A DNA stretch of 32,953 nt from Pseudomonadota bacterium (GTDB lineage: Bacteria > Pseudomonadota > Alphaproteobacteria > MPNO01 > UBA2964). Position 1 is the first letter of the stretch; each line of letters starts with the position of its first letter. The position numbers were made by a program, and so were the translations under genes. Under the pieces are notes generated by a model, which did not search any database, was not told the origin of the DNA, and saw only the letters and a program-made list of their open reading frames with translations. The DNA is taken from NCBI GenBank assembly GCA_027624735.1, contig JAQBTY010000005.1:1-32953 (forward strand), read 5' to 3'. Shown here piece by piece: positions 5,319-23,216 of this stretch.

Positions 5319-5356
5319 AAACCAGTCCTGGTGGATTCGAAGCAGACCCGCAGGGA

Positions 5357-7374: not shown

Positions 7375-7483
7375 GTGCGAAGCTCCCTGTCTGGTTTGGC
7401 CCACAGAATTGCCCGAAACGGGGCGTTTGGGAAGAGCGTCACATTGTGGTGATGCGATCGATTTCCCTATACAGCGCAATTTT

Positions 7484-7507: not shown

Positions 7508-7553
7508 GGCAATTATAAGCCGGCTAATAATATGTCACGTCAGGGAACGACGA

Positions 7554-8018
7554 ATGAGCTATCGGGAACCGGCCGAAAATGTCGGTTTTATCATCGGCGA
7601 TGTTTCCCGCATGCTGCGGACGGTCTATGACCGGCGGGTGGAGCCGCTCGGCCTGACCCGCGCCCAATGGCGGGTTCTGGCGCGCATCAGCCGCAAGGAA
7701 GGCTGCACCCAGACCGAACTGGCGGCGGAACTGGAAATCGAAAAACCAACGCTGGGGCGATTGGTCGATCGCCTGCAGGCGAATGACTGGGTGGAGCGCC
7801 GGGCTGACGAGACCGATGCCCGCACCAAGCGTATTTTTCTGACGTCCCGCGCCCAGCCGGTGCTGAAGAAAATGTACTCGCTGGCTGACGATGTGCTTGA
7901 CGGCGCCATTGCAGGTTTGACCCGGGAGCAGGCGGACCAGCTTCTGCAATCGCTTCTGCACGTAAAGTCAAACCTGTCCGAGCTTCTGACCAACGGCAAT
8001 ACGGCGGCGGGGCGGTAG
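7554..8018 (+). CDS. MarR family transcriptional regulator
   Basis: A 154-residue winged-helix regulator. The DNA-binding core is about residues 54-105: TQTELAAELEIEKPTLGRLV (recognition helix) followed by the wing ADETDARTKRIFLT with the DxR signature. Flanking N- and C-terminal helices should form the dimer interface. AGGGAA lies upstream of the ATG. The stop is 3 bases before the EmrA-like gene, so regulator and pump are one operon, and the palindrome at 7484 is its likely autoregulatory site. By analogy with EmrR, it would be released by a lipophilic or phenolic ligand; the ligand itself is not readable from sequence. Confidence 0.9.
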   Translation: MSYREPAENVGFIIGDVSRMLRTVYDRRVEPLGLTRAQWRVLARISRKEGCTQTELAAELEIEKPTLGRLVDRLQANDWVERRADETDARTKRIFLTSRAQPVLKKMYSLADDVLDGAIAGLTREQADQLLQSLLHVKSNLSELLTNGNTAAGR

Positions 8019-8021
8019 ACA

Positions 8022-9086
8022 ATGCGTGGAACGCGAAAACTTCTTCGTCTTTTGCTCCTGGTCGTCATCCCGGTGACGGTGGTGCTGACAGGCGGCCATT
8101 TCTGGGTAAAAAGTACGCGTTATGTGTCGACTGAAAACGCCTACGTCAAAGCCCACCATCTTGCGATTAGTGCCGATATTGACGGCCGTACCGTGCGCGT
8201 TCTGGCGAAAGAGAACGATGTGGTCAAGCGCGGCGATCTGTTGTTTGAACTCGATTCCGAACCGCACCGGATCAGTCAGGCGGCGGCGGAGGCGGAAATC
8301 GCGGGAATCCGGAACACCATCGCGGCCTTGCGCGCCGAATATCGCGAGGCCAAGGCGGAGCTTACCGACGCGGAACAGGAAATCGGGTATTACAGCCGCA
8401 TCTACGCCCGCCAGCGCAAACTGTCGACGCGCGGTATAGCCTCGCAAGCGAAATTCGACGAGGCGGAGCGCAATCTGACCAAGGCGCGCCAATTGTCCCG
8501 GACGATCAACCAGAAAATGCAGCGTGTCCTGGCCCGGCTTGGCGGCGCCTACGATCTGCCGATCGAGCAGCACCCGATGTATCGCGAAGCCCTAACCCGG
8601 CGCGACCGCGCCGCGCTCAATTTGCGCCGGACCCGCGTCACGGCGCCAGCCACCGGAACGGTCGGCAAGGTGACGCTGCAGCCGGGGGAATATGTCGAGG
8701 AAGGCAAGGCGGTGATCCCCATCGTGCTGGATCGGGAAATCTGGGTGGAAGCCAATTTGAAGGAGACTCAGTTGACCCATGTGCGGCCCGGTCAGACGGT
8801 GCGCATTGTTGTCGATACCTATCCCGATCATGAATGGAAGGCGGTTGTCAGTTCAATCAGCCCGTCGACCGGCGCGGAGCTCTCGGTGCTGCCGCCGCAG
8901 AACGCCAGCGGCAACTGGGTCAAGGTGGTCCAGCGCGTGCCAGTCCGCCTAAAGTTCGATGGTAACGGTCCCGGGCCGACCTTGCGCACCGGCATGACGG
9001 TAAAGGTAAGCATCGATACAAAACGGGACAGGTCTCTGTTCAAGATGATCGGAACAGCGCTTGCCCGCATCGGAGGGGCTGAGTGA
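8022..9086 (+). CDS. EmrA-like HlyD-family membrane fusion protein
   Basis: Periplasmic adaptor of 354 residues. A single N-terminal membrane anchor (about residues 7-27, LLRLLLLVVIPVTVVLTGG) is followed by a biotinyl-lipoyl-like half motif (TENAYVKAHHLAISADIDG ending in VKRGDLLFELD), a long coiled-coil hairpin (about 85-190), the second lipoyl half (RVTAPATGTVGKVTLQPGEYV) and a beta-barrel with the VEANLKETQL motif typical of EmrA. It should link the MFS pump to an outer-membrane channel; no TolC-like gene is in this window. It lies 3 bases after the MarR gene and overlaps the exporter gene by 4 bases. Confidence 0.9.
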   Translation: MRGTRKLLRLLLLVVIPVTVVLTGGHFWVKSTRYVSTENAYVKAHHLAISADIDGRTVRVLAKENDVVKRGDLLFELDSEPHRISQAAAEAEIAGIRNTIAALRAEYREAKAELTDAEQEIGYYSRIYARQRKLSTRGIASQAKFDEAERNLTKARQLSRTINQKMQRVLARLGGAYDLPIEQHPMYREALTRRDRAALNLRRTRVTAPATGTVGKVTLQPGEYVEEGKAVIPIVLDREIWVEANLKETQLTHVRPGQTVRIVVDTYPDHEWKAVVSSISPSTGAELSVLPPQNASGNWVKVVQRVPVRLKFDGNGPGPTLRTGMTVKVSIDTKRDRSLFKMIGTALARIGGAE

Positions 9087-10633
9087 GCGATCCCGGCGCT
9101 GCCGCGGGGGGCGCCGCCGTGCCGGCAATGCCCGAAGGCCTTAACCGCGCGATGATCACCGTGTCGGTCATGATGGCGACCACCGTCATCATCATGGACA
9201 TGAGCATTGCCTCCATCGCCCTGCCGCATATGCAGGGCGGACTGTCGGCCAATCAGGATCAGATTTCCTGGGTAATGACCATCTATTTCATGATGCAGGG
9301 CATCACCATGTCGGCAACCGGCTGGCTGGCCGGCCGGATCGGCCGTAAACGGCTCTATATAGGGACGTTGATCGGGTTCACGGTCTGCTCGATGCTGTCG
9401 GGCAGCGCTGAGTCGATTCCCGAAATCATGTTCTATCGTGGCCTCCAGGGCATGTTTTCCGCGCCGGTGGTTCCCATATCGCAGGCGCTGATGCTGGATT
9501 CCTACCCGCGCGAACGCCACGCCTCCGCCCTCGCCATCTGGGGAATGGGGGTCATGTTCGCGCCGGTCATGGGCCCCGTCATCGGCGGATGGCTGACGGA
9601 CGAATATAGCTGGCGCTGGGTGTTTTATGTTTCAATGCCCTTTGCCGCCTTGGGCGTGATCGGCGCCATCGCCTTTATTCGCGAGACGCCGAAGGACCGT
9701 GAACGGCGCTTCGATTGGCTTGGCTTTATCTGTCTCGGGCTGACGCTCGCCGGTATCCAGTTCCTACTCGACCGGGGCGAAGTCGAAGGCTGGTTTGATT
9801 CCAATTTTATCATCGGGATAGTGGCCGTGATCGGCCTCTCTTTTTACCTGTTCCTCGCCCACAGCCTGACGACCGACAACCCCTTCATCACGCGCAGCAT
9901 ATTCGCCGACCGCAATTTCGTCCTGGGCCTGATCTTCATGTTTCTGCTGGGTGTGCTGGTGCTGTCGATGAACGTCATCATGCCCATGTTCCTGCAGAAC
10001 TCGCGCGGACTTCCCATCCTGACCGCCGCCCTGATCATGATGCCACGGGGCCTCGGCACCCTGTTCGGTCTGGTTTTTGCCGGGCGGGCCGCCAATATCA
10101 TCGATCCGCGCGCGGTCATCATCTTCGGCTTTGCCTGCGTCGCCTGCTCGGCCTGGATGTTGGCCGGCTTTACCAACGAGGTCGGCATTGTGGATTTTGC
10201 CATTGCCGCCTTCGTCAACGGCATCGGGATCGGCGCCATCTGGGTCCCGTTGACGACGGTTTCGTTCTGGACCTTACCCACCCATCTGCGAACCGAAGCG
10301 TCGACCTTGACCAGCCTGCTTCGCAACTATGGCAGCGGCATCGGCATTTCCGTCGTGGTCAGCGTCCTGTCACGCAGCCGGGCGACGACCCACGCCTATC
10401 TGGCCGAACGGGCGTCGCCCTATGCGGACGCGATGCAAGAACCCTGGCTGCCGAGCCAGTGGGATATATACACCAACGAGGGGCTGATGGCGCTGCAGGC
10501 AGAGGTCTCGCGCCAGGCGCTGGCGGTCGGCTTCCTGAATGATTTCAACCTGATCTTCTATGGCGCGCTGTTTTCCATCCCACTGGTGATGCTGATGGTC
10601 CGCAGCAGTACGGCGCGGGCGGCTGCGGGATGA
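9083..10633 (+). CDS. EmrB-like MFS drug exporter (DHA2, 14 TM)
   Basis: A 516-residue proton-driven exporter of the DHA2 (14-TM) branch. Helix 1 reads MMATTVIIMDMSIASIALPHM, which contains the D-x-S-I/V-x-x-x-A-L-P pattern. The A-loop between helices 2 and 3 is GWLAGRIGRKRLY, and motif C is recognisable as GMGVMFAPVMGPVIGGWL. A large loop near residues 205-215 (ETPKDRERRFDW) joins the halves. It starts with GTG at 9083, overlapping the upstream stop (GTGA), with GGAGGGG just before. The N-terminus is rich in Gly and Ala. Partner of the fusion protein directly upstream. Likely substrates are hydrophobic drugs or uncouplers, by family analogy only. Confidence 0.92.
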   Translation: MSDPGAAAGGAAVPAMPEGLNRAMITVSVMMATTVIIMDMSIASIALPHMQGGLSANQDQISWVMTIYFMMQGITMSATGWLAGRIGRKRLYIGTLIGFTVCSMLSGSAESIPEIMFYRGLQGMFSAPVVPISQALMLDSYPRERHASALAIWGMGVMFAPVMGPVIGGWLTDEYSWRWVFYVSMPFAALGVIGAIAFIRETPKDRERRFDWLGFICLGLTLAGIQFLLDRGEVEGWFDSNFIIGIVAVIGLSFYLFLAHSLTTDNPFITRSIFADRNFVLGLIFMFLLGVLVLSMNVIMPMFLQNSRGLPILTAALIMMPRGLGTLFGLVFAGRAANIIDPRAVIIFGFACVACSAWMLAGFTNEVGIVDFAIAAFVNGIGIGAIWVPLTTVSFWTLPTHLRTEASTLTSLLRNYGSGIGISVVVSVLSRSRATTHAYLAERASPYADAMQEPWLPSQWDIYTNEGLMALQAEVSRQALAVGFLNDFNLIFYGALFSIPLVMLMVRSSTARAAAG

Positions 10634-11097
10634 ACCCGAAGCGCCTTCTCGTGGTGGCACATGCACCGTCAGCGAACACCGGCAGATTGCGGGATGCGGT
10701 CATGGCCGGCGCGCGGGCGTCGGATATCGGCGCGGTTGACGTCCAGTGTATCGCGCCGCTGGCGGCACAGCCCGAAGACGTGCTGGCGGCCCAGGCGGTT
10801 ATTCTCGGGACAACGGAAAATCTCGGCTATATGAGCGGTGCGCTGAAGGATTTTTTCGACCGTATTTATTACCCCTGCCTGGAAAAGACCCAGGGGATGC
10901 CCTACGCCCTTTATATCCGGGCCGGGCTGGACGGCACGGGGACGCGGCGCGGAGTAGAGACCATCGTCACGGGCTTGCGCTGGCGCGCCGTCCAGGACCC
11001 GCTGATCTGTCGCGGAGAATTCGACGGGGCGTTTGTGCGTTCGTGCCGGGACCTCGGCACGGCCATGGCGGCGGGGCTGGATGCGGGGATATTCTGA
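10630..11097 (+). CDS. flavodoxin/NADPH-dependent FMN reductase-like protein
   Basis: A 155-residue flavodoxin-fold protein. The first strand and phosphate loop are RLLVVAHAPSANTGRL; the second FMN-contact region is VILGTTENLGYMSGALKDFFDR, very like the TPVYWGSMSGALK type of NAD(P)H-dependent FMN reductases. It overlaps the exporter stop by 4 bases (ATGA), so it is the fourth gene of the MarR-led operon. A quinone or nitro reductase role alongside efflux would fit, together with the divergent SDR, but no substrate can be read from the sequence. No terminator is clear in the 24-bp gap to the convergent gene. Confidence 0.75.
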   Translation: MNPKRLLVVAHAPSANTGRLRDAVMAGARASDIGAVDVQCIAPLAAQPEDVLAAQAVILGTTENLGYMSGALKDFFDRIYYPCLEKTQGMPYALYIRAGLDGTGTRRGVETIVTGLRWRAVQDPLICRGEFDGAFVRSCRDLGTAMAAGLDAGIF

Positions 11098-11121
11098 CGC
11101 AATACGCCCAGGCTCAGGGGA

Positions 11122-12045
11122 TCAGCGGATTTTGAACACAATTTTGCCGCGGACATGGCCGTCGGCGCTCAGCTTTTGCGCCGCCGCCGCATCCGCCAAT
11201 GCCATTTCCTTGACATCCATGGGTTTAATCGCACCGGCTGCATAGAGTTCGGAAATCCGGTCCAGATGGCGTGGGTCCCGAGTCACGTTAGGGCGCTTTA
11301 CGGTGACATTATCGGGCGGAATGAAACCAGCCGGCGGCGCCGCGACATAAACAAGACGGCCGCCGGGTTTCAGAACCGCGAAGCTCTGTTCATGTACTTT
11401 TCCACCCATGGTGTCGAAGATCACGTCGCAGGGCGGAACCGCCTGCGTGAAATCCTGGCTTGTGTAATCGATGACTTCATCGGCGCCGAGGTCACGGACA
11501 TAGTCATGGTTGCGGGCGCTGGCGGTGGCATAGACGGTCGCGCCAAGATGTTTTGCGTACTGCACCGCAAATCCGCCAACACCCCCGGCGCCGGCATGAA
11601 TCAGGATTGTTTCACCCGCGGAAAGCGCAACACTATCCAGCGAAACAATCGCCGTCGCCCCGACAAGCGCCAGAGCGGCGGCGTTAACATGGGACAGGCC
11701 GGCGGGCTTGCGCGCGACAAGCGACGCGTCGACGGCGATCGCGTCGGCATACGTCCCCTGCTGGGTCTGGGGCGTTACGCCATATACCTCGTCACTGGCG
11801 CCGAACGTCGTGACACCGGCACCGACCGCCCGCACCACGCCCGAAAAATCGATGCCCGGCGTGTACGGAAAATTCAGGAAAAGATTGTCCTTGCGCGCGC
11901 CATTGCGAATTTTCCAGTCCACCGGATTGACGCTCGCGGCGTAAATGTCGACCACGAGCTCTCCCGGGCCAGCAACCGGATCGATGACATTGCGCAGCTC
12001 GAGTACATCCGGACCGCCATAGGCATCTAGTTGAATTGCTTTCAT
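11122..12045 (-). CDS. zinc-free MDR family quinone oxidoreductase-like enzyme
   Basis: A 307-residue medium-chain dehydrogenase/reductase. It begins MKAIQLDAYGGPDVLEL, typical of NADP-dependent quinone oxidoreductases. The NADPH motif is AGAGGVGGFAVQYAK (about residue 150). The catalytic zinc ligands of alcohol dehydrogenases are absent, as in the QOR group. The C-terminal KLSADGHVRGKIVF is standard for the family. It is the last gene of the minus-strand cluster that starts at 16783, and a short SDR relic separates it from the MetE-like gene. GAAGGGTG precedes the start. Confidence 0.85.
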   Translation of the reverse strand: MKAIQLDAYGGPDVLELRNVIDPVAGPGELVVDIYAASVNPVDWKIRNGARKDNLFLNFPYTPGIDFSGVVRAVGAGVTTFGASDEVYGVTPQTQQGTYADAIAVDASLVARKPAGLSHVNAAALALVGATAIVSLDSVALSAGETILIHAGAGGVGGFAVQYAKHLGATVYATASARNHDYVRDLGADEVIDYTSQDFTQAVPPCDVIFDTMGGKVHEQSFAVLKPGGRLVYVAAPPAGFIPPDNVTVKRPNVTRDPRHLDRISELYAAGAIKPMDVKEMALADAAAAQKLSADGHVRGKIVFKIR

Positions 12046-12063
12046 ATGTTAGTCCGACACCCT

Positions 12064-12141
12064 TCAATGCGCGACAGCGCCACCATCAAATACCATGGTT
12101 TGTCCCTTCACGAAATCCGCATCGCGAAATTCCTGGCAACT
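12064..12141 (-). pseudogene. C-terminal relic of a short-chain dehydrogenase
   Basis: In the 95-bp gap between two genes the minus strand encodes CQEFRDADFVKGQTMVFDGG then AVAH and a TGA stop (12064-12066). The FVxGQTxxxDGG pattern is the hallmark of the SDR C-terminus. There is no start and no Rossmann part; upstream, this frame runs into the MetE-like gene, which is read in another frame. It therefore looks like the tail of a deleted SDR gene. About 25 codons remain. Confidence 0.6.
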
Positions 12142-13307
12142 TAACCCCAAAGCTCCTTGCTGGCGATTGCAGCCCCCTCAACCAGGGCGTTGAACTTGGC
12201 CCACATGATCGAGGGGTGGACGCGGCGATATAACGGACCCTGCGCAAATCCGCAATCGGTACCGGCGATAACGCGTTCGCGCCCCAGAAGCCTGGCCACC
12301 CGCACGATCCGCTCGGCGACCAGTTCGGGATGTTCAACCACATTCGTCGAATGGCTGATGACGCCATGGATCAGGATCTTGTCCTCGGGCAAATCCGCCT
12401 CACCCCAGACTTTCCATTCATGTTCGTGACGCGGGTTGGCCCCTTCGATGACATAGGCGCCGGCATTCACCTGCAGGATAAGATCGACGATATCCTTCAG
12501 CGCAACATCGGTGGTATGCGGTCCGGGCCAGCTTCCCCAACAAACATGGTAGCGGATTTTCTCCGGCGGAATGCCCTCGAGAGCGAGATTGAGAACCGCC
12601 ACATGTTTCGCGACCCAGTCACGGTATTCCTTGAAGGTGCCCGGCGGCACCATTCGGTCGTAGGTGACGGTCGCCCGCGCATCGTCGAGCTGCAGCAACA
12701 AACCGGCATCGATTATGGCGTTGTATTCCACCTGCATGGCCTTGCCGATGGCCTCCAGGCAATCATCCTCGCTCGCATAAAACTCGTTGCGGCGGTCCGG
12801 AATGACGCTGGACGGGGCGGCGACCGGCAGGAACCCTTCGGCAACGTCAACCTGCGCCAGCGCCGCCTTGAAATTGGCGATATCCCGCTCGACATCGGCC
12901 AGCCCGGTATAGTCGATGGGCGCCACGCAGACCGCCTCGTTCACCGTGGCGTATTTTTGCTTGCCGTCGAGTTCTTCGTAAAATTCAGCGAACCGTTCCC
13001 TGTCCGCGCCCTGGGCAAAGACGTTTCCTTCGGTGGAAATCGGCCGCCTTTCGAACCCGCTCAACCGTTCCAGTGCATATTGGGACCAGCTGATGGATTT
13101 GCCGAACTCGCCATCGCTTACCACGTCGATACCGGCCGCCGCCTGCTGGCGGACGATGTCGGCGACACTGGATTTCAGACAGGCCGCATGGGCAGCCCTG
13201 TCATAGGGTTCGCCGGCCTGTAAGGGACGGATGTACGTCAGCAGATCGTCCGGCCTGATGAGACTGCCGACATGGGTGGTCAAAACACGGTCAGTACTAC
13301 GCTGCAT
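12141..13307 (-). CDS. MetE C-terminal-like (cobalamin-independent methionine synthase II family) protein
   Basis: A 388-residue zinc barrel similar to the catalytic C-terminal half of MetE, without the N-terminal folate-binding half. It begins RVLTTHVGSLIRP, the common opening of this group. Expected zinc ligands are visible as His254 and Cys256 (YHVCWGSW), an acidic residue around Glu289 (VIEGANPRHE) and Cys352 (AGTDCGF). These proteins transfer methyl or related groups to thiols; many are not true methionine synthases. It lies downstream of a second MetE-like gene and a MetF-like gene on the same strand, so a methyl-transfer role is likely. Methyl donor and acceptor are unknown. Confidence 0.85.
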   Translation of the reverse strand: MQRSTDRVLTTHVGSLIRPDDLLTYIRPLQAGEPYDRAAHAACLKSSVADIVRQQAAAGIDVVSDGEFGKSISWSQYALERLSGFERRPISTEGNVFAQGADRERFAEFYEELDGKQKYATVNEAVCVAPIDYTGLADVERDIANFKAALAQVDVAEGFLPVAAPSSVIPDRRNEFYASEDDCLEAIGKAMQVEYNAIIDAGLLLQLDDARATVTYDRMVPPGTFKEYRDWVAKHVAVLNLALEGIPPEKIRYHVCWGSWPGPHTTDVALKDIVDLILQVNAGAYVIEGANPRHEHEWKVWGEADLPEDKILIHGVISHSTNVVEHPELVAERIVRVARLLGRERVIAGTDCGFAQGPLYRRVHPSIMWAKFNALVEGAAIASKELWG

Positions 13308-13390
13308 ATCGCCCCTGGAAATTCATTTATAATTTTTTTAGCACAGCTCCGAACGCCCGGCTGCGAGTATAGGCATATGCCGATGGCGCG

Positions 13391-14416
13391 TCACCCCGGA
13401 CTGGCAATCAATCGATGTTTTGTCAGTATCGCAGCCACATCGTGGGGCGACAAATCGCCCAGTCCGCATTCACTGGCGACGCCAAAGGCGGCGACCCGTT
13501 GCGCCGCAAGGGCGATCTGGTGATGGGTTATGGCAATATCGTCGTTGGTATGGATAACGCCGAGAAACAGCTGCGTTTCGTCACGCAGGGTCAACCGATC
13601 CAGAGGCGCGAAATAGCGTCCGTCGCGTGTGTATTTCGGCACCGGAAAATGCATCCAGTCGATGGGCCGGCCAACGAGGCCGGATAGGCCGTTGGCGAGG
13701 TCGACGATCCGGTCGAGGTCCGCCGGCAATGGAAAATCATTGAACTCAAAATCGCGAAAGCAGAAATGCAGCCCAAGTTCCACGCCATCGGGGACAGCTT
13801 CGGCGGAGCGAACGATACGATCCAGAATGCCGTCCCAGACCCGCCTGAAATGAACCGGCCGCCGCCCCTCGATAACGCTGAGCTCGGTCGCGAGATTCCA
13901 TTGGATCGCGAGTTCATGGTGCGGAATGGCCGAAGCAATTTCAGCGATCTCTTCCAGCAAGCGGTTCTCATAGGCCGGCTCGACCGCGATTTGAAAGGCA
14001 TCATCGACATGTTGCGCGACCACGCTAAGCGCGGTCGCGACACCGACCTGGAGCCGGCAATCGGCGGCAATCGTTCCTTTTGCCTTTGCCGCGGTAAATG
14101 CCTGATAGGATACTTTCGCGGCGGCGGCATACCCCAACGGGCCGAACTGAACCGCTGCCGTCGGAAAGCCGGAACGCACCCTGTATTGAGGTCCTTTTTG
14201 CCGCTGCCCGGATGGACCGGAGGAATCATCTATCCGCTCGACAAAGGGTATCCGGCCGAACACGGACGATTGCCACTGCACCCAATCTGTCCGGTCCCCG
14301 GATTCCCCGTCGGGTATCCGGTGAATGAGGCCGTCCAGTTCACACCCGACGGCGGAAAAGACGTCATCCGCCGATTTGAGCGGAATGCTGCCAATCAGAA
14401 GGATTTCTCTCGCCAT
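13391..14416 (-). CDS. divergent MetE/UROD-like barrel protein
   Basis: A 341-residue protein distantly related to MetE-like barrels. It begins LLIGSIPLKSADDVFSAV with the IPDGESGDRTDWV segment characteristic of an uncharacterised branch of this superfamily. Possible zinc ligands are His217 and Cys219 (GLHFCFRD) and Cys317 (ASECGLG). The acidic ligand between them is not obvious in the same place, so zinc chemistry may differ. The ATG shares one base with the stop of the MetF-like gene (TGATG), a strong sign of coupled translation and of joint function. It differs clearly from the other MetE-like protein downstream, so it is not a recent duplicate. Confidence 0.75.
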   Translation of the reverse strand: MAREILLIGSIPLKSADDVFSAVGCELDGLIHRIPDGESGDRTDWVQWQSSVFGRIPFVERIDDSSGPSGQRQKGPQYRVRSGFPTAAVQFGPLGYAAAAKVSYQAFTAAKAKGTIAADCRLQVGVATALSVVAQHVDDAFQIAVEPAYENRLLEEIAEIASAIPHHELAIQWNLATELSVIEGRRPVHFRRVWDGILDRIVRSAEAVPDGVELGLHFCFRDFEFNDFPLPADLDRIVDLANGLSGLVGRPIDWMHFPVPKYTRDGRYFAPLDRLTLRDETQLFLGVIHTNDDIAITHHQIALAAQRVAAFGVASECGLGDLSPHDVAAILTKHRLIASPG

Positions 14417-15336
14417 CAGGAACTGCCCTCCGATCGCACCCGTGCCAGGACATCGAGGATACTCAGGGCCTTGACCGGCGCCATCAGATGCACGCCGGCG
14501 ATTCCGGGAATGGTCCGCATTGCCTCGATCAATTCACTGCAGACCGCGATCCCTTCCGCCGACGGGTCGGCGGCTTGCTCCAACCGCTCGATTACGCTGT
14601 CGGGGACCAGCACACCCCACAGATTGTCACGCATCCAGCGCGCCGACCGCGCCGACGCCAGCGGCCCCGTCCCGATCAAAATCTTAAGCCGTTCGGTCAG
14701 TCCCAGATCTACCAACCTGCCGATATACCGAACGATGATTTCGATATCGAAGCATAGCTGTGTCTGGACAAACCCGGCGCCGGCATCCGCCTTCGCAATC
14801 AGCCCCTCGGGCCGCCATCCGGGCGGGGGATCGATGGGCGTGTCGGCGGCGCCCATGAAAAAATGTGGGCGGGTGACGATCGGCCGGTCGCCGGCGCAGA
14901 TACCGTCTTGCGCCATCCTGGTGGCTGTCGCGATCAGTTCACGAGCATCCATATCGAAAACCGGTTTCGCCGCGGGATGCTGATCGGCGGGCAGATCGTC
15001 ACCGCGAAGCGACAGGATATTGTGGATGCCGAGCGCCGAGGCGCCGAGCAGATCGGCCTGCATGGCTATTCTGTTACGGTCCCGGCAGGTCATTTGCAAA
15101 ATCGGCTCTATGCCATTCGCCGACAGGATTGCGGCCGCGGCCAGGCTCGACATATGAACGAGGGCGCGCGGACCGTCGGTGACATTCAGCGCGTCCACCC
15201 TGCCGCGGAACGGTTCGGCCAGGGCAAGAAGATCGTCCGCGGAACCGGAGACCGGCGGCGTCAGTTCCGCGGTAATGGCAAACCCCTCGTTGCCCAACAA
15301 TGCCGCCAATCCGCTATCGCCACTGAGGTCCGCCAT
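14416..15336 (-). CDS. methylenetetrahydrofolate reductase (MetF-like)
   Basis: A 306-residue FAD-dependent TIM barrel of the MTHFR family, close to E. coli MetF in length. Motifs: AELTPP near residue 23 with the catalytic-type Glu, ALNVTDGPRA, QMTCRDRNRIAMQADLLG, the NILSLRGDD strand-loop and FVQTQLCFD. It interconverts methylene- and methyl-tetrahydrofolate. The start at 15336 was chosen for the AAGGGG upstream and the 16-nt gap from the preceding stop; an earlier ATG (15378) would overlap that gene. The stop is fused to the start of a MetE-like gene. In such a setting it may supply methyl-THF for transfer, or recycle methyl groups taken from a substrate. Confidence 0.88.
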   Translation of the reverse strand: MADLSGDSGLAALLGNEGFAITAELTPPVSGSADDLLALAEPFRGRVDALNVTDGPRALVHMSSLAAAAILSANGIEPILQMTCRDRNRIAMQADLLGASALGIHNILSLRGDDLPADQHPAAKPVFDMDARELIATATRMAQDGICAGDRPIVTRPHFFMGAADTPIDPPPGWRPEGLIAKADAGAGFVQTQLCFDIEIIVRYIGRLVDLGLTERLKILIGTGPLASARSARWMRDNLWGVLVPDSVIERLEQAADPSAEGIAVCSELIEAMRTIPGIAGVHLMAPVKALSILDVLARVRSEGSS

Positions 15337-15352
15337 TGGTTTGCCCCTTGGG

Positions 15353-16783
15353 TTAAGCCCGCCGCCTGGAGACGACAAAGGATTCGTCGAAAAACCACAG
15401 CCCGCCGCGTTCTTTCAAAACGTCGCGTGTCGCATCCAGATAGAAGCCGTCCTGTATGACCGCCTCGAGGCGGTCGTCCTCGATCTGGGCAACATAGACC
15501 GCCGCATTCCACGCCGCCAACAGGGTAGATGTGCCAATGCTGCTACCCACCTCGCTCGGGAGTGTGTGCATGTTGTAGCGAAAAATAGCGCGCTTGTCGG
15601 CATAGGTGTTGAAGTTAAGGTCCCTTTGGGTGCGGCCGATTTCCTGCTTCAGAACCTTGAGCAGATCGTGTCTGTTCGTTTTGAACGGATCTTCGCCGGG
15701 CCACATCCTGCGGACGATGTCGAGACCCGGATCGTTGCCGTGAGAGTGAATCCCCAGCAACCGCCCCCCCGGCCCCAGGCTGCTCGCGAGCGGCGCCAGG
15801 ACCTTTTTCACTTTGAAATCGTTGGACATTCTGGCGCGGTAGGGCTGCGAGGCGATAACCAGATCGTAATCGGCGCGCGTGCGACCGGGCTGCGGAATGA
15901 CCTGATCGAGCAAAAACTTATGATCTTCCCGATAAAGCACCAGCACGGACGGCCGCACATAAAGCGGATTGCCGGTTTTTTCGCTGGCCCGAACCTGCCA
16001 CCCCTCGGCGAGTTGCGGCTGCAAATTGGCGATCTGCTCATCGAACTCGTACGCGGTATTTCCCGACAGCGGAACGTCAATCCAGTTCAGGGCCGCCGCG
16101 GCCTGCATCGAGCGCGGAGAAAGCCATGGCGCTTCCGTGTAGTAAAGATTGGTGACGACCAGAACCGTCGCCGGATGCTCATGAAAACGGTCGGGCATCT
16201 TTTCCAGACTCAGGCGAACGTCCTCAAGACTGACTTCTTTCCCCACCAGGTAGAAAGGCAGCGTCGGAAACCGGTGATGCATATTGCGCATGACCCGGGT
16301 CAGGACCGTCCCGTCTCCCATACCGGCGTCGAACACCCGCAAGGCCGGGGGCTGCGGGTGAATATGCGCAAGCTCCATGCCGGCCCGATCCGCGACCACC
16401 CATTTTTCCCCGCAGGTGTTGACGAACATGAGATATTTCTGGCGATTGTCATAAAACCGGAATGTCGCCTGCGGATCGAAAGCCTGAGGCGCGGATCTTT
16501 TGCCGCCGGCTAATCGTGCCGATGGCGCATGAACAGGCCCACCGGTTTCCACTAGCCTGTTGTCCGGCGATCCGGCGCCTTCGCCGGCAGCCCCAAGATT
16601 TGCGTTTGTCATGAGGAACTGTCTGACGCGTCCCACAGTCGCCGTGGTCACGCGCTTGCCATCACGCAGACGGCTGACAAATTTACCGTCATTGACGGAT
16701 TTTTTTCCGAAGGTGGATTCAGCAATACCCGCCGCGCGGCAGTATTCCTCTATCCGTCGCAGAAGCTCAGATTGATCATCCAT
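15353..16783 (-). CDS. HTH-domain protein fused to SAM-methyltransferase-like domain
   Basis: A 476-residue protein in two parts. Residues 1-60 (LLRRIEEYCRAAGIAESTFG, then DGKFVSRLRDGKRVTTATV) look like a small helix-turn-helix domain. From about residue 100 on there is a Rossmann-like methyltransferase core: LRVFDAGMGDGTVLTRVM as motif I, FYLVGKEVSLEDVR after it, and later DYDLVIASQPYRAR and GPGGRLLGIHSHG strands. I know this only as a conserved uncharacterised alphaproteobacterial type. The start at 16783 has GGAGGG upstream; ATG at 16822 is a less likely alternative. First gene of the methyl-transfer cluster, so it may regulate it, modify a cluster product, or both. Substrate and DNA target unknown. 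Confidence 0.7.
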   Translation of the reverse strand: MDDQSELLRRIEEYCRAAGIAESTFGKKSVNDGKFVSRLRDGKRVTTATVGRVRQFLMTNANLGAAGEGAGSPDNRLVETGGPVHAPSARLAGGKRSAPQAFDPQATFRFYDNRQKYLMFVNTCGEKWVVADRAGMELAHIHPQPPALRVFDAGMGDGTVLTRVMRNMHHRFPTLPFYLVGKEVSLEDVRLSLEKMPDRFHEHPATVLVVTNLYYTEAPWLSPRSMQAAAALNWIDVPLSGNTAYEFDEQIANLQPQLAEGWQVRASEKTGNPLYVRPSVLVLYREDHKFLLDQVIPQPGRTRADYDLVIASQPYRARMSNDFKVKKVLAPLASSLGPGGRLLGIHSHGNDPGLDIVRRMWPGEDPFKTNRHDLLKVLKQEIGRTQRDLNFNTYADKRAIFRYNMHTLPSEVGSSIGTSTLLAAWNAAVYVAQIEDDRLEAVIQDGFYLDATRDVLKERGGLWFFDESFVVSRRRA

Positions 16784-17097
16784 ACGGAACCCATGCCCTC
16801 CAGCGAATAGCCCAGACTTCACCGTGATAATTTTCCTGTCAATAATTTTCCCAATAAATTTAAATTATCATTAATGGGAAGTATCCCACCGCTATTGCAG
16901 AAAACGGCAAAGTTCCGGGCATTTCTTGGGTGGGACCTGGTGGGATACCATCGGGATCCTACGGCCTGGTGGGTCTTCTTCCCAATGTTTTATCCTGACA
17001 CCATCAGAGTCGGACTCGGCCGCCTCTGTTTCCGCCTGTACCCAACCGCGTTCGCACGCGATACAATCCGTGAATATTAGAAATTGAAGGTTTCTAA
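16784..17097. other. 314-bp divergent intergenic region with nested inverted repeats and AT-rich direct repeats
   Basis: No convincing gene. Near the methyltransferase gene, ATAATTTTCC occurs twice (16827-16836 and 16842-16851, period 15) in an AT-rich stretch that could hold the promoter. Further right, GTATCCCACC (16881-16890) pairs perfectly with GGTGGGATAC (16939-16948), flanked by an outer TGGGAAG/CTTCCCA pair (16875-16881 and 16978-16984). This could be a structured RNA leader or an operator pair for the HTH protein. A 68-codon open frame at 16874 has no recognised content. Confidence 0.5.
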
Positions 17098-17706
17098 ATG
17101 GACCCTCGCAGTAGCGCCCCCATAAACAATGACGCCCTGAACAGGCTTTTCCGCGATGCCCGCACGTTCGATGCCTTTCAGGACAGGGCCGTTCCGGACG
17201 AGCTGCTGCAGGCCGCCTATGAGTTGGCGCGGATGGCGCCGACCAGCGCCAATTGCCAGCCCATGCGCATCCTGTTTTTGCGATCGGCGGAAAGCCGTGA
17301 ACAATTGGCGCCGGCGCTGTCTTCCACCAACCGGGACAAAACCCTGGCGGCGCCCATAACGGCAATCATCGCCCATGATCTGGATTTTCCGGCCACCTTG
17401 TCGCAACTCTACCGCGTCCCGGGCGCGGACAAGTGGTTTTCGGGCGAGGACCTGATCGCGGAAACCGCATTCCGCAACGGTTCGCTGCAGGGGGCCTATT
17501 TCATGCTGGCGGCGCGCGCCGTCGGGCTCGATGTCGGCCCCATGTCGGGTTTCGATAATGTAAAAGTCGACGCGACCTTCTTTCACAGCGGCGATCACGC
17601 CAACTGGCGATCCAACTTCATCTGTAATCTCGGCTTCGGCGACCCGACCGGCCTGCCGCCCCGCGATCCAAGGCCCGAATTCTCGGACGCCTGTTCGATT
17701 TTGTAA
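17098..17706 (+). CDS. rutE: malonic semialdehyde reductase RutE-like nitroreductase
   Basis: A 202-residue flavoprotein of the nitroreductase fold that matches the RutE pattern closely from memory: LFRDARTFDAF, MAPTSANCQPMRI (FMN phosphate contacts), ALSSTNRDKTLAAPITAI, AETAFRNGSLQGAY and VGLDVGPMSGFD. RutE reduces malonic semialdehyde to 3-hydroxypropionate at the end of the Rut pyrimidine ring-cleavage pathway, and can take other toxic aldehydes. Here rutB, rutC, rutD and rutF are absent, while two RutA-like oxygenases lie convergently next door. Only 37 bp separate their stops. A role in detoxifying an aldehyde from that chemistry is the natural inference. Confidence 0.82.
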   Translation: MDPRSSAPINNDALNRLFRDARTFDAFQDRAVPDELLQAAYELARMAPTSANCQPMRILFLRSAESREQLAPALSSTNRDKTLAAPITAIIAHDLDFPATLSQLYRVPGADKWFSGEDLIAETAFRNGSLQGAYFMLAARAVGLDVGPMSGFDNVKVDATFFHSGDHANWRSNFICNLGFGDPTGLPPRDPRPEFSDACSIL

Positions 17707-17743
17707 CCCGGATACGGATCGGCTATGAGCAACCTTGCCAGCT

Positions 17744-18835
17744 TTATGCCCGCAACCCAAGCCGCTGCAGGCGCGGCAGCACCTCGTCGCGGAGCGCGGG
17801 CATGTCGTCGATATAGTTGACCAGGCCGACGGCCATGCCGTCGAGGCCGTAATCGCTGAGCTGGCGGAACCGGTCGGCCACCGCGTCATAGCTGCCGACC
17901 ACCGGATAGGTGCCGGTGCCGCTGATGATGACTTCTTTCATTTGGGCGAGCTTTGCCCCGGAGGTGGAACCGCCGCGGGTCCTGATCTTTACCGTGTGTT
18001 CGGCCGCCTCCCAATCGCCGTGCTCGTAAACCAGATAGTGGTAATATTCCTCTGCCTCTTTCGCCGTCGGCTTGCAGATCAAATGGCCGCTGGCATAGAG
18101 GCCGGCGCTGCCGGCGGGACGGTTTTTCTGCAATTCGGCGACCTTGCCGGATAGTTCGTCAAGTTCGCGCACGGACGTGAACAGGCAATCGGCGTGCCGC
18201 CCGGCAAAGGCCAGCCCCGCGCCCGAGTTGCCGGCACTGATCAGAAGCGGCCGGTCATCGTCATAGGGTTTTGGTTTGAGAAGAACGCCTTTCAGGTCGA
18301 AATACTTGCCCTTGAAATCGAATGGCTCGTCCTCGGACCAGATTCGTTTGACGATGGTGACCCATTCCTCGGAATAATCGTAGCGTTCGTCATGCTCGCG
18401 GATCTGCACGCCATGCATCTCGTGCTCACCCACGTTCCAGCCGGACACGATATTGAGGCCAAACCTTCCTTCGCCGATATGGTGCGCGGTCACCATCTGC
18501 TTGGCGGCGAAGATGGGGCTCAAGAGCGACACGTGAACGGTGCCGAAAATACAGATGTCCCTGGTGCCGGCAAGAAGGCCCGACGCCCAGGTCAGGGTTT
18601 CAAAGGATTCACCCGCCGTGTCGGTCTCTCCGCCATAGCCGTGCCAGCGTCCGATGGGCAGCAGAAATTCGAGCCCGGCCTCATCGGCGAGACGCGCTGC
18701 CTGGAGATTGTTATCGAACGAGGCGTCCCAGTATTCCGGCGCCTTGGTCATGGTCAGCCCGCCGGAACAATTGAGGCCGAACAGCCCGAGCTTGAATTTG
18801 TTGGGGCCATACATGCGGGTTTGGTTACGCTTCAT
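17744..18835 (-). CDS. LLM class flavin-dependent monooxygenase, RutA/SfnG-like (copy 2)
   Basis: A 363-residue luciferase-like TIM barrel. FMN-binding and family blocks seen: the CSGGLTMTKAPE opening, LPIGRWHGYGGETDT, GRFGLNIVSGWN, DEPFDFKGKYFDLKGVLLKP and the closing TGTYPVVGSYDAVADRF. It needs a separate flavin reductase for FMNH2; none is adjacent. RutA (pyrimidine ring opening) and SfnG (dimethyl sulfone) are the nearest named types I can recall, and the choice cannot be made by eye. The start at 18835 (MKRNQTRMYG) overlaps the upstream paralog's stop by 11 bp, so the two are coupled. It shares long identical blocks with that paralog. Confidence 0.85.
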   Translation of the reverse strand: MKRNQTRMYGPNKFKLGLFGLNCSGGLTMTKAPEYWDASFDNNLQAARLADEAGLEFLLPIGRWHGYGGETDTAGESFETLTWASGLLAGTRDICIFGTVHVSLLSPIFAAKQMVTAHHIGEGRFGLNIVSGWNVGEHEMHGVQIREHDERYDYSEEWVTIVKRIWSEDEPFDFKGKYFDLKGVLLKPKPYDDDRPLLISAGNSGAGLAFAGRHADCLFTSVRELDELSGKVAELQKNRPAGSAGLYASGHLICKPTAKEAEEYYHYLVYEHGDWEAAEHTVKIRTRGGSTSGAKLAQMKEVIISGTGTYPVVGSYDAVADRFRQLSDYGLDGMAVGLVNYIDDMPALRDEVLPRLQRLGLRA

Positions 18836-19958
18836 CGACAGGGCTCTCTTGTTTCCAAGCGGTGACCGGCAGTCGCAGGCCGAGCCGTTCCATGCGCGGC
18901 AGGACTTCGTCGCGCAGGGCCGGGAAATCCGTAATGTAATTGACCAGCCCGATGGCGATGCCATCGACGCCGCACTCACTCATCATACGGTATTCCTCCA
19001 CCACGTCATCGTAACTGCCTACCACCGGATAGGTGCCGACGCCGCTGATCATGCGTTCCTTAAGCGTGGTCAGCGTTTTCAAGGGCGTATCGCGGCCCTT
19101 GGTGCGGATCGCCACGGCATGCTCGGCGGCCTGCCAATCGCCGGTGTCGTAGACGATGTAATTGTAATAATCCCGCGCCTCTTTCCGGGTTGGCTTCGCG
19201 ATCATGTGGCCGCTGGCGTAGATCCCGACATTCTTGTTTTCGGATGATTCTCGAAGCGCGGCGACGCTGGGGCCGAAGGCGTCAAATTCCATTATCGACG
19301 TAAACAGGCAATCGGCATGGCGCGCCGCAAAGGCCTTGCCGGCAGGCGAATTGCCGGCGCTCACCAGCATAGGTCTGTCCCCGCCATAGGGTCGGGGCTT
19401 TAACAGCACGCCCTTGAGATCGAAATATTTGCCCTTGAAGTCGAACGGTTCGTCTTCCGCCCACACGCGTTTGAGGATGGTCACCCATTCTTCGGTATAG
19501 GCGTAGCGTTCTTCATGTTCGCGCATCGTGACGCCGAACATGGTGTGTTCGCCTGCGTTCCAGCCCGACACCATGTTGAGCCCGAAGCGGCCCTTGCCGA
19601 TATGATCGGCGGTAACCATCTGCTTGGCCGCGAATATGGGGCCGATAAAGGGCACGTGGACGGTGCCGAACAGGCAGATGTCCCGGGTGGCCGCCAGGAG
19701 ACCGGACGCCCAGGTCAACGTCTCGAAGGCCGTTCCCTCGGTGTCGGTTTCGCCCTTGTAGCCATGCCACCGGCCGATCGGCAGGATGAATTCAAGCCCG
19801 GCTTCGTCGGCAAGCCGCGCCGCCGTGACGTTGTTCCGCCAACTCGGATCCCAGCGTTCCGGCGCCTTGGTCATGGTCAGCCCGCCGGAACAGTTCTGCC
19901 CGAACAGACCAAGCTTGAATTTATTGGGCCCGTACATGCGGGTGTGAAGGCGCCCCAT
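18825..19958 (-). CDS. LLM class flavin-dependent monooxygenase, RutA/SfnG-like (copy 1)
   Basis: A 377-residue paralog of the downstream gene, with the same blocks: CSGGLTMTKAPE, LPIGRWHGYKGETDT, GRFGLNMVSGWN, the 20-residue DEPFDFKGKYFDLKGVLLKP, and VGTYPVVGSYDDVVEEY. The C-terminus has an extra LPVTAWKQESPVDEA tail. The start at 19958 (MGRLHTRMYG) is preferred because homology to the paralog begins at RMYGPNKF; the longer frame to 20087 is unlike the family. It opens the two-gene unit and is divergent from the TRAP transporter. Sequence differences are spread along the length, so it is an older duplication that may have split substrate or step specificity. Confidence 0.85.
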   Translation of the reverse strand: MGRLHTRMYGPNKFKLGLFGQNCSGGLTMTKAPERWDPSWRNNVTAARLADEAGLEFILPIGRWHGYKGETDTEGTAFETLTWASGLLAATRDICLFGTVHVPFIGPIFAAKQMVTADHIGKGRFGLNMVSGWNAGEHTMFGVTMREHEERYAYTEEWVTILKRVWAEDEPFDFKGKYFDLKGVLLKPRPYGGDRPMLVSAGNSPAGKAFAARHADCLFTSIMEFDAFGPSVAALRESSENKNVGIYASGHMIAKPTRKEARDYYNYIVYDTGDWQAAEHAVAIRTKGRDTPLKTLTTLKERMISGVGTYPVVGSYDDVVEEYRMMSECGVDGIAIGLVNYITDFPALRDEVLPRMERLGLRLPVTAWKQESPVDEA

Positions 19959-20050
19959 CTGTGCACACGCTCCGGTAAGAAACCTGAATTGGCGCCACGC
20001 ATCCCGCAGCCCCGTCTCCCCATTAAACCACGGGCAATTGGAATTGGGGA

Positions 20051-20070
20051 AGATATAGAGGGAAATATCT
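20051..20070. promoter_or_regulatory. short inverted repeat in the monooxygenase/TRAP divergent gap
   Basis: AGATAT (20051-20056) and ATATCT (20065-20070) form a perfect 6-bp inverted repeat with an 8-bp spacer, midway in the 221-bp gap between the divergent units. It could be an operator coordinating both, but it is short and no local regulator gene is present. Confidence 0.25.
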
Positions 20071-20179
20071 CTGCCTGTTCTGTGCACTAGACAATCGAGC
20101 GGCTTCCCGCGATGATGACCGCCATAACAGACGGTCAGGTAGGATGACCGCGTTCATACGAGGCGACAGGGAGAAAACG

Positions 20180-22135
20180 ATGGCCGAAGCTACGGCGGCG
20201 AGCGAGCAAATCGTTTCGGTCGATGAAGGCGGCGGCGATCGAACGCGAAATCTAAGTGGTCCGCTGGCATCCATCGTGCACATTGTCGCCATCAGCCTCA
20301 GCATCTACATCCTTCTCTACGTCTCGACCATCTTCAACTATATCGGCATCCAGCTATTCGGCGCCCATCGCGCCCTGGTCTATGGCGCGGTGCTGTTTAT
20401 CCTGTTCATGAGCTATCCGGCGGGGGAAAACAGCCCGCGCGACCGGGTCCCATGGTATGATTACCTGCTGGCGGCAACCGGAACGGGTGCGGCGCTTTAT
20501 GCCTGCCTGTCTTGGGAAAAATGGCAGTACGAAGTAAACCTGCCAACGATTTTCGAGCAAATCCTCGGCATGGCGTTGGTCCTGATCACGTTGGAAGCCG
20601 CCCGACGGGTGCTCGGGCTCGCCTTTGCGCTGGTGATTTCGCTTTTTATCATTTACCCGCTGGTCGGCGAACATCTACCGGGCATTCTGGCTACCCAGCC
20701 CTACTCGATCTCTTCATTGGTACAGTTCTTTTATCTGGCAGGCGGCAGCAGCGGTATGTTCGGCACCCCGATGGAGATATTCTCCACCACGGTCGCGCTG
20801 TTCCTGCTGTTTGGCGGTTTCCTCAAGGTCACCGGCGCCGCCACCATCTTTCTCGACGTGGCCATGGGGCTGGCCGGTCAGTTCAGATCCGGCATGGCCA
20901 AAGTCGCGGTGGTGGCAAGCGCGCTGTTCGCGACCATCAGCGGCGTCGGCGTGGCCAATGTGCTGGTGACAGGATCCTTCACTATTCCTGCGATGAAGCG
21001 CATGGGCTACCGGCCGCACATTGCCGCCGCGATCGAGGCCGCCGCCTCGACCGGCGGAATATTGATGCCGCCGGTCATGGGCGCCGCGGCGTTCCTGATG
21101 GCCGACATCCTGGCGGTGCCCTACTGGGAGATCGTCGTCGCCGCTTTCCTGCCGGGTATTCTCTATTACGTCGCCATGTTCACCATGGTCGATTTTGAAG
21201 GCGCCCGCGAAGGCATCAAGGGCATACCGCGCGAACAGATTCCGGCGCTCGGCAAAACCATCAAAAGCGGCTGGTATCTGCTGATTTCGGTGGCCGTGCT
21301 GCTATTCCTGCTTGGCTATCTTGCCCTTCCCGTCGACCAGTCGGCGCTGGCTGCCCTGCTCACCCTGATCGTGCTGTCGGCGTGCCGCAAGGGCGGGCTG
21401 CGCGGCAAAGGCGTCGTCAACGCGCTCGAGGATGGCGGCCGGCTGCTTGCGGAAATCGGCTCCGCGGGCGCCGCCGTCGGCATCATCATGAGCGGTTTCG
21501 CGCTCACCGGGCTCGGCGCCTTGTTGCCGCAGGCGATGCAGGACATCGCCGGCGATAGCCTGTTCGTGCTGCTGTTGCTCGCCGCTTTCGCCTCGATCGT
21601 CCTGGGAATGGGAGCGCCGCCGCTGCTGGTTTATGTGCTGCTGGCCGCGACGGTGGCCCCGGCGATCATCAAGGCCGGCGTGCTGCCGATCGCGGCGCAC
21701 ATGTTCATCTTCTATTTCGGGCTGCTGTCGATGCTGACACCGCCGGTCGCGCTTTCCGCGCTGATCGCATCGCGCGTCGCGGAAGCCAATTTCTGGCGAA
21801 CGTCGATCGAATCCTGCCGGCTTGGCATCATCGCCTTCATCATTCCGTTTTTCTTCGTCTACCAGCCGGTTCTGTTGATGGAAGGCAATGCGATCGATCT
21901 GTTCCATGCCATAGCAACCGCGGTCGCCGGCGTGATCGGTCTTAGCGCGGCGCTGACCCGTTATTTCTTCACCCGTGCCCTGCCCCTATGGGAAATCGCC
22001 TTCTTGGCCTCGGGTGGATTGTTGCTGCTCTATCCGGGTGGTCTGTCGGACCTGGCAGGGGTTGGTTTGATGCTACCATCGATTTGCGTCTCAATTTTCA
22101 TTCATCGGCGGCGACAGATGGAACCGGCCAGTTAA
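20180..22135 (+). CDS. TRAP transporter fused permease (4TM/12TM, TAXI type)
   Basis: A 651-residue membrane protein that joins the small (4-TM) and large (12-TM) TRAP subunits in one chain. The N-terminal cytosolic region is followed by hydrophobic helices from about residue 35 (SIVHIVAISLSIYILLYVS). The DctM-like core shows GLAGQFRSGMAKVAVVASALFATISGVG and ATGILMPPVMG-like blocks (STGGILMPPVMGAAAFLMA), typical of the substrate/Na+ translocation half. This fusion goes with TAXI binding proteins, and the next gene encodes one. The start at 20180 has AGGGAG upstream; an ATG at 20144 lacks a site. It likely imports an organic anion using a sodium gradient. Confidence 0.9.
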   Translation: MAEATAASEQIVSVDEGGGDRTRNLSGPLASIVHIVAISLSIYILLYVSTIFNYIGIQLFGAHRALVYGAVLFILFMSYPAGENSPRDRVPWYDYLLAATGTGAALYACLSWEKWQYEVNLPTIFEQILGMALVLITLEAARRVLGLAFALVISLFIIYPLVGEHLPGILATQPYSISSLVQFFYLAGGSSGMFGTPMEIFSTTVALFLLFGGFLKVTGAATIFLDVAMGLAGQFRSGMAKVAVVASALFATISGVGVANVLVTGSFTIPAMKRMGYRPHIAAAIEAAASTGGILMPPVMGAAAFLMADILAVPYWEIVVAAFLPGILYYVAMFTMVDFEGAREGIKGIPREQIPALGKTIKSGWYLLISVAVLLFLLGYLALPVDQSALAALLTLIVLSACRKGGLRGKGVVNALEDGGRLLAEIGSAGAAVGIIMSGFALTGLGALLPQAMQDIAGDSLFVLLLLAAFASIVLGMGAPPLLVYVLLAATVAPAIIKAGVLPIAAHMFIFYFGLLSMLTPPVALSALIASRVAEANFWRTSIESCRLGIIAFIIPFFFVYQPVLLMEGNAIDLFHAIATAVAGVIGLSAALTRYFFTRALPLWEIAFLASGGLLLLYPGGLSDLAGVGLMLPSICVSIFIHRRRQMEPAS

Positions 22136-22196
22136 CGATGACGTCGCCGATCCGAACGACACTATGTCGAACAATATTCAGAAAGGGAGATACATT

Positions 22197-23216
22197 ATGA
22201 AACACTTGCGGAAAGCTTCGTTGCGTTTGTCCATGGCCGCGGCCGTAACAACCTGTGCGCTGAATATCGGGATCGCCGCGGCAAAGGTGCCGGCTGTCAT
22301 AACCTGGGGCGTTCCGCCGGAAGGCGCCAGCGGGTATCTCATGGTAACCGGCTTCAGCGGCACAGTCACAAAGCATACTCCGATCAGAAAAATCGTGCTG
22401 CAGAATTTCGCCGGCGCCGCCGGCTGGCCAGCCCGCATGCAACGCGGTGAACTGAACTTCGCCATTCATTGCGGATTCAAGACCATGTCCGATGCGTGGC
22501 AGGGCAAGGGTATCTTTGAAAAAATGGGGCGGCTGAAAAATATCCGCAATGTGGCAACCGGCTATGGACTGGCCTACGGCTACCATTTTTCCGATCCCAA
22601 GATCAAATCCGTCGCCGACATGAAGGGCAAAAGCTTTTTCCTCCAGGTCAGCCACCATGACCAGGTGACGGCGGCGACGGAGATGCTCGCGGATTTCGGG
22701 TTGGTATACGATAAGGATGTCAAAATTATTCCCATACGGTCACCCCGCGAAGCCATCCAGGGGATCCTGACCGGTCGCGCCGACGGCATGGCCTATGGCG
22801 CGGTTCCAGGCTTGGCGCAGATAAAACAGGCCAAATCAGGGTTCCATACTGTGTCGATTCCGATGAAAACCCTGAACAGAATCAGCGCGGCGGAACCGGT
22901 CTGGGGCGCGACAACCCTTAAAGCCGGCAGCAACCCGCTGAAGCCATCCGAAGACGTAACGACGCTTGAACTCGGCTGCGGTATTTCAGCCGGCACCAAC
23001 ACCAGTGCGGACACCGTCTATCAGGTGATCAAGGCGGTTTACGATCACCATGACGAATGGAAAAACGTGCATCCCATCGCAAAGCGGTGGTCGGTGAAAA
23101 AAGCCGTGCAGACCACGGTCCAGCCGTTCCATGACGGCGCCGTCCGGTACTACAAGGAAAAGGGCGTATGGACGGCGGCGCTTGAGGCCAAGCAGAAAGC
23201 GCTGCTCGCCCAGTAA
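22197..23216 (+). CDS. TAXI family TRAP transporter solute-binding protein
   Basis: A 339-residue periplasmic binding protein. The signal peptide is residues 1 to about 28: basic MKHLRKASLRL, a hydrophobic AAAVTTCALNIGIAAA core and cleavage near AAA-KV. The mature part shows ASGYLMVTGFSG, ELNFAIHCGF, KSFFLQVSHHDQVTAATEML and a repeated binding-lobe layout typical of TAXI proteins. GGGAGA lies upstream of the ATG. The gene follows the fused permease after 61 bp and precedes a hairpin terminator, so the two form the transporter operon. The ligand is unknown; context (RutA/SfnG-like enzymes) suggests the compound these oxygenases attack. Confidence 0.85.
   Translation: MKHLRKASLRLSMAAAVTTCALNIGIAAAKVPAVITWGVPPEGASGYLMVTGFSGTVTKHTPIRKIVLQNFAGAAGWPARMQRGELNFAIHCGFKTMSDAWQGKGIFEKMGRLKNIRNVATGYGLAYGYHFSDPKIKSVADMKGKSFFLQVSHHDQVTAATEMLADFGLVYDKDVKIIPIRSPREAIQGILTGRADGMAYGAVPGLAQIKQAKSGFHTVSIPMKTLNRISAAEPVWGATTLKAGSNPLKPSEDVTTLELGCGISAGTNTSADTVYQVIKAVYDHHDEWKNVHPIAKRWSVKKAVQTTVQPFHDGAVRYYKEKGVWTAALEAKQKALLAQ

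Follow-up and report, generated by a model that had tools for sequence, protein, structure and literature searches.

Luciferase acting with FRP or FRase I is a two-component flavin monooxygenase whose reductase belongs to the nitroreductase family, and nitroreductase-family proteins can act as FMN reductases for luciferases. RutE has a place assigned downstream in the Rut pathway. The demonstrated reductase of that pathway is RutF, as a portion of PMC7662398 has it, and the residues L65, T105, N134, V136 and F224 have been tied to the dioxygen pocket of RutA in passages of PMC7662398 and PMC8234197. Luciferase-like oxygenases can also use a reductase encoded elsewhere in the genome, according to part of PMC12239570, so that an adjacent reductase is not required. 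Paralogue expansions of FMN-dependent monooxygenases (FMNO) are described for SAR202 in a section of PMC6946804.

The stretch of DNA analysed here (the window) is the whole of contig C240, 32,953 bases, from a marine-type alphaproteobacterium whose draft genome consists of 515 contigs and is 93.8% complete and 5.9% contaminated. Five genes from rutE to TAXI are present and intact: a rutE-like gene for a nitroreductase-family flavoprotein (17098-17706, + strand; NF003768), the luciferase-like monooxygenases LLM2 (17744-18835, - strand; PF00296) and LLM1 (18825-19958, - strand; PF00296), the latter the first gene of an LLM1-LLM2 operon, a fused TRAP permease (20144-22135, + strand; TIGR02123, 573 bits) and a TAXI solute-binding protein (22164-23216, + strand; TIGR02122, 133 bits, cut-off 84). 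The oxygenase starts were chosen by us, an ATG at 18835 for LLM2 (MKRNQTRMYG) and at 19958 for LLM1 (MGRLHTRMYG), and both listed reading frames extend further 5'; given this LLM2 start, LLM1, which stops at 18825, overlaps LLM2 by exactly 11 bp. With rutE convergent with LLM2 across 37 bases, and with LLM1 and the TRAP gene pointing away from each other, the five genes do not form a single operon. They make up three units: rutE (+), the LLM1-LLM2 operon (-) and the TRAP/TAXI pair (+). The gene content and positions of the original prediction, the 11-bp overlap and the lack of rutB, rutC, rutD and rutF are all borne out; neither these four genes nor rutG were seen in the window. A transposase-like ORF at 4260-5186, presumably of the IS1595 type, lies between thiamine genes and an uncharacterised pair.

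The oxygenases LLM1 and LLM2

The oxygenase had been described as duplicated. Two related genes are indeed there, but they are ancient paralogues with 72% identity and not a fresh copy. A recent tandem duplication was rejected, as a tree pairing LLM1 with LLM2 alone fails (AU p 1.4e-5), and the two proteins head separate orthologous groups whose sister-genus members, with 82-83% and 72-76% identity, lie at other places. LLM1 and LLM2 score 135.8 and 129.6 bits against the RutA model TIGR03612 (cut-off 498.3), and 175.8 and 174.3 bits against the SfnG model TIGR04021 (cut-off 382.95). In trees of 86 and 36 rows, both quick trees that agree on the points used, LLM1 and LLM2 fall within a clade made up largely of alphaproteobacterial paralogues. 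RutA and SfnG lie outside it, on very long branches that leave their exact placement unsure. The phylogenetic comparison with RutA and SfnG that the original prediction had called for thus puts the oxygenases in a type of their own, and the prediction for LLM1 and LLM2 is a pair of sister group-C enzymes, two-component monooxygenases that depend on FMNH2, in a clade distinct from both RutA and SfnG. No description of this oxygenase family or of its pairing with rutE was found in the literature searched, in which subscription papers were thinly covered.

By the PF00296 match and the predicted structure of LLM2 (pLDDT 84.7) the fold is the luciferase-like TIM barrel expected of a group-C monooxygenase. 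The model superposes on SfnG with Z 36.0 (2.5 A over 325 residues, 29% identity) and on RutA with Z 35.2 (2.5 A over 320 residues), effectively a tie. FMN is by analogy likelier than F420 as the cofactor because of the relationship to RutA and SfnG. Both oxygenases keep the RutA-type dioxygen-pocket residues L65, T105, N134-x-V136 and F224, with x being M in LLM1 and I in LLM2; at position 105, a number that is our own mapping of a motif given in a passage of PMC8234197, with the motif's separate A left out of the mapping, SfnG has A where RutA, LLM1 and LLM2 have T. The own genome contains 29 PF00296 matches in all.

That the locus serves sulfur scavenging from dimethylsulfone or an alkanesulfonate, with enzymes of the SfnG/SsuD type, would fit the rank of SfnG, whose sequence is the best match among solved structures (E 1.5e-34) and whose fold is among the nearest. 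It is nevertheless improbable in view of the scores of about 175 bits against an SfnG cut-off of 383, the A in SfnG in place of T105 and the failure to find an SsuE-like reductase nearby. No SfnG over the TIGR04021 cut-off occurs in the 27 genomes sampled from the order.

The RutE-like protein and the missing Rut pathway

The RutE-like protein of the window scores 258.7 bits against the NCBIfam malonic semialdehyde reductase model NF003768 (cut-off 152) and is 49% identical to E. coli RutE. With this protein and a RutA-like fold both present, the locus could be seen as a Rut operon decayed by loss of rutB, rutC, rutD and rutF, which is very hard to credit with LLM2 only ~26% identical to RutA, oxygenase scores of 130-136 bits against a cut-off of 498, and RutA outside the oxygenase clade in the trees. 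No RutA over the TIGR03612 cut-off is found in the 93.8% complete genome and the best RutB candidate there reaches 97.6 bits against a cut-off of 377.95. The original claim that this is not a Rut pathway accordingly stands; the genome-wide search for other rut genes that went with it was carried out for RutA and RutB, neither of which is over its cut-off. A RutE gene alone says little about Rut, since RutE-like genes occur in 149 of 385 genomes of the class (E 1e-48 or better); by contrast, an LLM2 relative is present in only 7 of the 385 (E 1e-95 or better).

Association of rutE with the oxygenases

In the sister genus g3, within an order sample of 27 genomes, seven genomes have a rutE orthologue (64-68% identity), and every one of the seven has LLM3, a third oxygenase paralogue, immediately downstream of it on the same strand, with a gap of a few dozen bases or less; two further g3 genomes, 71-72% complete, yielded no rutE orthologue. 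In G086, a member of another family of the class, a RutE gene (83645-84220) is 18 bp upstream of an oxygenase gene (84238-85317) whose product is a 59% relative of LLM2. Around 38 other RutE loci of the class, ~3 kb to each side, such an oxygenase was found in none (0/38). Counted from the oxygenases, rutE is present in 7 of 48 loci against 0 of 40 control stretches of 12 kb (p 0.012), the seven being one inherited arrangement. Of 60 loci fetched, 48 entered this count; the other 12, L075, L078 and L079 among them, covered less than 9 kb of the 12-kb frame and were dropped. The 40 "random" controls come from genomes of the order, 20 of them from the single genome G017, and their positions, at even or round coordinates, were chosen manually. 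No rutE adjoins the oxygenase of G349, the other class-wide LLM2 relative outside the window's own family (43%), nor the LLM3 relatives in g2 and f3 (L020, L118, L119, L121, L129).

In the RutE tree the window protein and the seven oxygenase-linked g3 proteins form one clade (support 99) with a long stem and the fixed changes W23F, G73T and F101Y (E. coli numbering). The G086 protein keeps the usual residues at these three positions and is placed nearer to E. coli RutE (62% identity) than to the window/g3 clade; it appears from this that the pairing of RutE with these oxygenases arose at least twice. Independent origins number approximately two, because the g3 genomes inherited a single arrangement and the window rutE is of that lineage as well. 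In the window rutE is convergent with the oxygenase genes and is not co-transcribed with LLM1 and LLM2. The original view that rutE goes with the oxygenases is upheld by the recurrence in g3 and G086 and by both sets of controls.

A grouping by chance of a RutE-like gene, an oxygenase pair and a TRAP importer without joint function might be expected in a genome with 29 PF00296 and 33 TAXI matches, in a class where RutE-like genes are so common, and given that TRAP/TAXI adjacency is at background. For rutE and the oxygenases, however, the arrangement is repeated in g3 and G086, and for a single rutE the probability of coming to lie no more than ~200 bp from an oxygenase of this kind is put, roughly, at 0.2% here and at 0.04% for G086; as an account of the whole locus, chance is unlikely.

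The TAXI TRAP importer

The binding protein and the fused permease are both over their model cut-offs (TIGR02122, TIGR02123) and constitute a TAXI TRAP importer. Its inclusion in the original prediction as part of the system is not sustained: TAXI genes accompany the oxygenase in 3 of 48 loci and occur in 2 of 40 control stretches, and for TRAP permeases the corresponding figures are 4 of 48 and 4 of 40. With the own-genome locus on contig C35, dropped from the first count, and the window included, the TAXI figures become 5/50 against 2/40 (p 0.32). A close relative of the window TAXI protein was found neither in 26 other genomes of the order (E 1e-40) nor in 384 others of the class (E 1e-45). 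Membership of the importer in the system was rejected for want of enrichment over random stretches; it may adjoin the oxygenases by chance, and for the TRAP genes chance neighbourhood is the best reading.

Other SfnG/RutA-like oxygenases are found near a TRAP permease and TAXI or other binding proteins on contig C35 of the own genome (L079, 1476-5724) and in L106-L108, again not above background, and in L151 (G190) a RutE homologue without an oxygenase directly adjoins TAXI/TRAP genes. Glutamate, 2-oxoglutarate and phthalate are among the ligands known for TAXI proteins, and VcGluP requires a Q for glutamate, as set out in passages of PMC12344293. Aligned with 9oz4 and 9ibp the window protein has C in place of a Q that is probably the glutamate Q of VcGluP.

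RutE as the likely flavin reductase

Farther out in the oxygenase family, among 20 non-own loci of the same phylum (38-45% identity, from 14 of 398 genomes, 1.5-kb flanks), a RutF-like flavin reductase is beside 11 and rutE is beside none. Conversely, no RutF or SsuE homologue is present in the nine rutE-linked loci. The difference for RutF-like genes, 11/20 against 0/9 (p 0.005, shared descent not corrected for), suggests that RutE and the RutF-like kinds fill the same place. The Rhizobium tropici and Peribacillus plasmids likewise have a "flavin reductase family protein" near a relative. Because distant members of the family carry a RutF-like reductase where RutE stands here, it is most likely, to judge from these gene neighbourhoods, that RutE supplies FMNH2 rather than removing an aldehyde. 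Counting against a reductase is that, by name and by sequence alike, the closest protein to the window RutE is still the RutE of the Rut pathway.

The original prediction had RutE remove an aldehyde product. In this alternative ring opening or bond cleavage by the oxygenases leads, further downstream, to a reactive, malonic-semialdehyde-like aldehyde that RutE then reduces; the malonic semialdehyde reductase equivalog score far over its cut-off speaks for it, and the conserved linkage would fit a downstream step too. However, no homologue of RutB, RutC or RutD (the hydrolase and deaminase steps) is beside the G086 pair, no intermediate hydrolase or deaminase is named in the window, and the RutF-like reductases that occupy the same place in 11 of 20 distant loci point to FMN reduction. 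The long stem and the changes W23F, G73T and F101Y of the linked clade also weigh against it, though the G086 protein keeps the usual residues. Overall we regard aldehyde removal as the less probable role, to which perhaps a minority chance may be given.

The best explanation of the whole, to which we assign a probability of roughly one half, is that LLM1 and LLM2 are two-component monooxygenases with RutE as their reductase, and that TRAP/TAXI is an apparently unconnected neighbour. The RutE-like protein would then be the NAD(P)H:FMN reductase of LLM1 and LLM2, replacing the RutF-like reductase. To judge from the dioxygen-pocket residues the oxygenases may use an N5-type flavin oxygen adduct, which would serve to oxidise a small and chemically stable molecule or to cleave it. 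The catabolic neighbours of the paralogues hint that this could be an aromatic or heteroaromatic acid, a substrate class that is weakly grounded because UbiD, molybdenum hydroxylase and SDR genes are not enriched near the oxygenases.

A possible island remnant and catabolic neighbours

LLM2 and LLM3 face each other in the g2 genus (L075), and TauD, SDR, UbiD, TetR and UbiD genes follow behind LLM3. In g3 (L082-L088) LLM2 is located elsewhere than the LLM3 island; rutE and, in most of the seven, nitrile hydratase are upstream of LLM3, with the same TauD/SDR/UbiD row, and the conserved island of ~20 kb has several genes each for UbiD-family decarboxylases and TauD dioxygenases as well as SDR, VOC and TetR. 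The LLM3 of the own genome is near the end of contig C318, its upstream side lying beyond the contig. The window locus may be the remnant of a larger island, as the g2 and g3 orders combined, minus LLM3, would give the window order of rutE facing LLM2-LLM1.

Genes for UbiD, a molybdenum hydroxylase of the xanthine dehydrogenase type and SDR were considered as substrate clues; they are beside several paralogues, yet no commoner than in random stretches. TauD is near the oxygenases in 14/48 loci against 5/40 (p 0.05) and nitrile hydratase in 4/48 against 0/40, both borderline and largely from one inherited cluster. A more far-reaching proposal, which we offer as speculative and rather doubtful, is that a RutE-type nitroreductase was recruited at least twice as the dedicated reductase, of FMN or of flavin-N5-oxide, for a new RutA-like ring-opening clade that acts, with UbiD and TauD, on dissolved organic matter of the carboxylated aromatic or heteroaromatic kind; if so, LLM1, LLM2 and LLM3 would act on successive or related substrates.

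A number of other neighbourhoods may be recorded. In L138 (G086, 1708-14638) the RutE-oxygenase pair is amid molybdenum hydroxylase subunits, a fumarate-lyase-family gene, a solute-binding protein and formyltetrahydrofolate deformylase-like (PurU-like) and MetE-like genes, and the set resembles a catabolic operon for N-heteroaromatic or methylated compounds. The window itself encodes at 12141-16822 (- strand) a methyltransferase-like protein without a Pfam match, MTHFR-like (PF02219) and MetE-like (PF01717) proteins, and a further protein without a Pfam match that we take from a motif to be MetE-like. The MetE-like/MTHFR genes (12141-15378) are not claimed as methyl-handling partners, as they are beside no other oxygenase locus searched except for one hit in L017, 9 kb off and separated by housekeeping genes. 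L244 (Peribacillus plasmid NZ_CP084540.1, 6010-10875) has a near-tandem LLM oxygenase pair with a flavin reductase and a riboflavin kinase. In L243 (Variovorax plasmid NZ_LR594663.1, 7971-15995) an LLM1 relative is accompanied by an SDR, an isochorismatase-family hydrolase, presumably of the RutB superfamily, a PEP-mutase-family lyase, a leuCD-like dehydratase, a riboflavin-synthesis (RibBA-type) gene and a flavin reductase.

Comparison with known systems

In annotation pipelines the RutE-like protein would be named "malonic semialdehyde reductase" and LLM1 and LLM2 would be labelled RutA- or SfnG-like, so that such genomes would be wrongly credited with pyrimidine or dimethylsulfone use. The original interpretation is borne out in part: it holds as to the absence of Rut, the separate oxygenase type and the rutE linkage, and is not supported as to aldehyde removal and the TAXI TRAP importer. 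What is new is RutE paired with an oxygenase clade that is neither RutA nor SfnG, a modest and testable novelty; the pairing has the look of an oxygenase with the enzyme that feeds it electrons rather than of a uracil pathway in decay. If RutE is the reductase, a common orphan gene of the alphaproteobacterial genomes sampled would gain a testable role and an uncharacterised oxygenase clade a ready two-component assay. The RutE of Rut operons might itself share the electron-supply role.

With the Rut pathway of E. coli the locus has in common the RutE family, a group-C TIM-barrel oxygenase and the L65/T105/N134-x-V136/F224 pocket. It differs in having two oxygenases, each far under the RutA cut-off, in a genome with neither RutA nor RutB over cut-off, and in that none of rutB, C, D, F and G was seen in the window. 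SfnG is the closest solved fold, tied with RutA, but LLM1 and LLM2 are under its cut-off, have T and not A at RutA position 105 and have other partners. Luciferase with FRP/FRase I would work alike if RutE supplies FMNH2, although RutE is of another subfamily and its reductase role is a predicted one. The many luciferase-like paralogues per genome recall the FMNO expansions of SAR202, as far as these are covered in the cited section of PMC6946804, but here they are found in an alphaproteobacterium, in lower numbers and in other clades.
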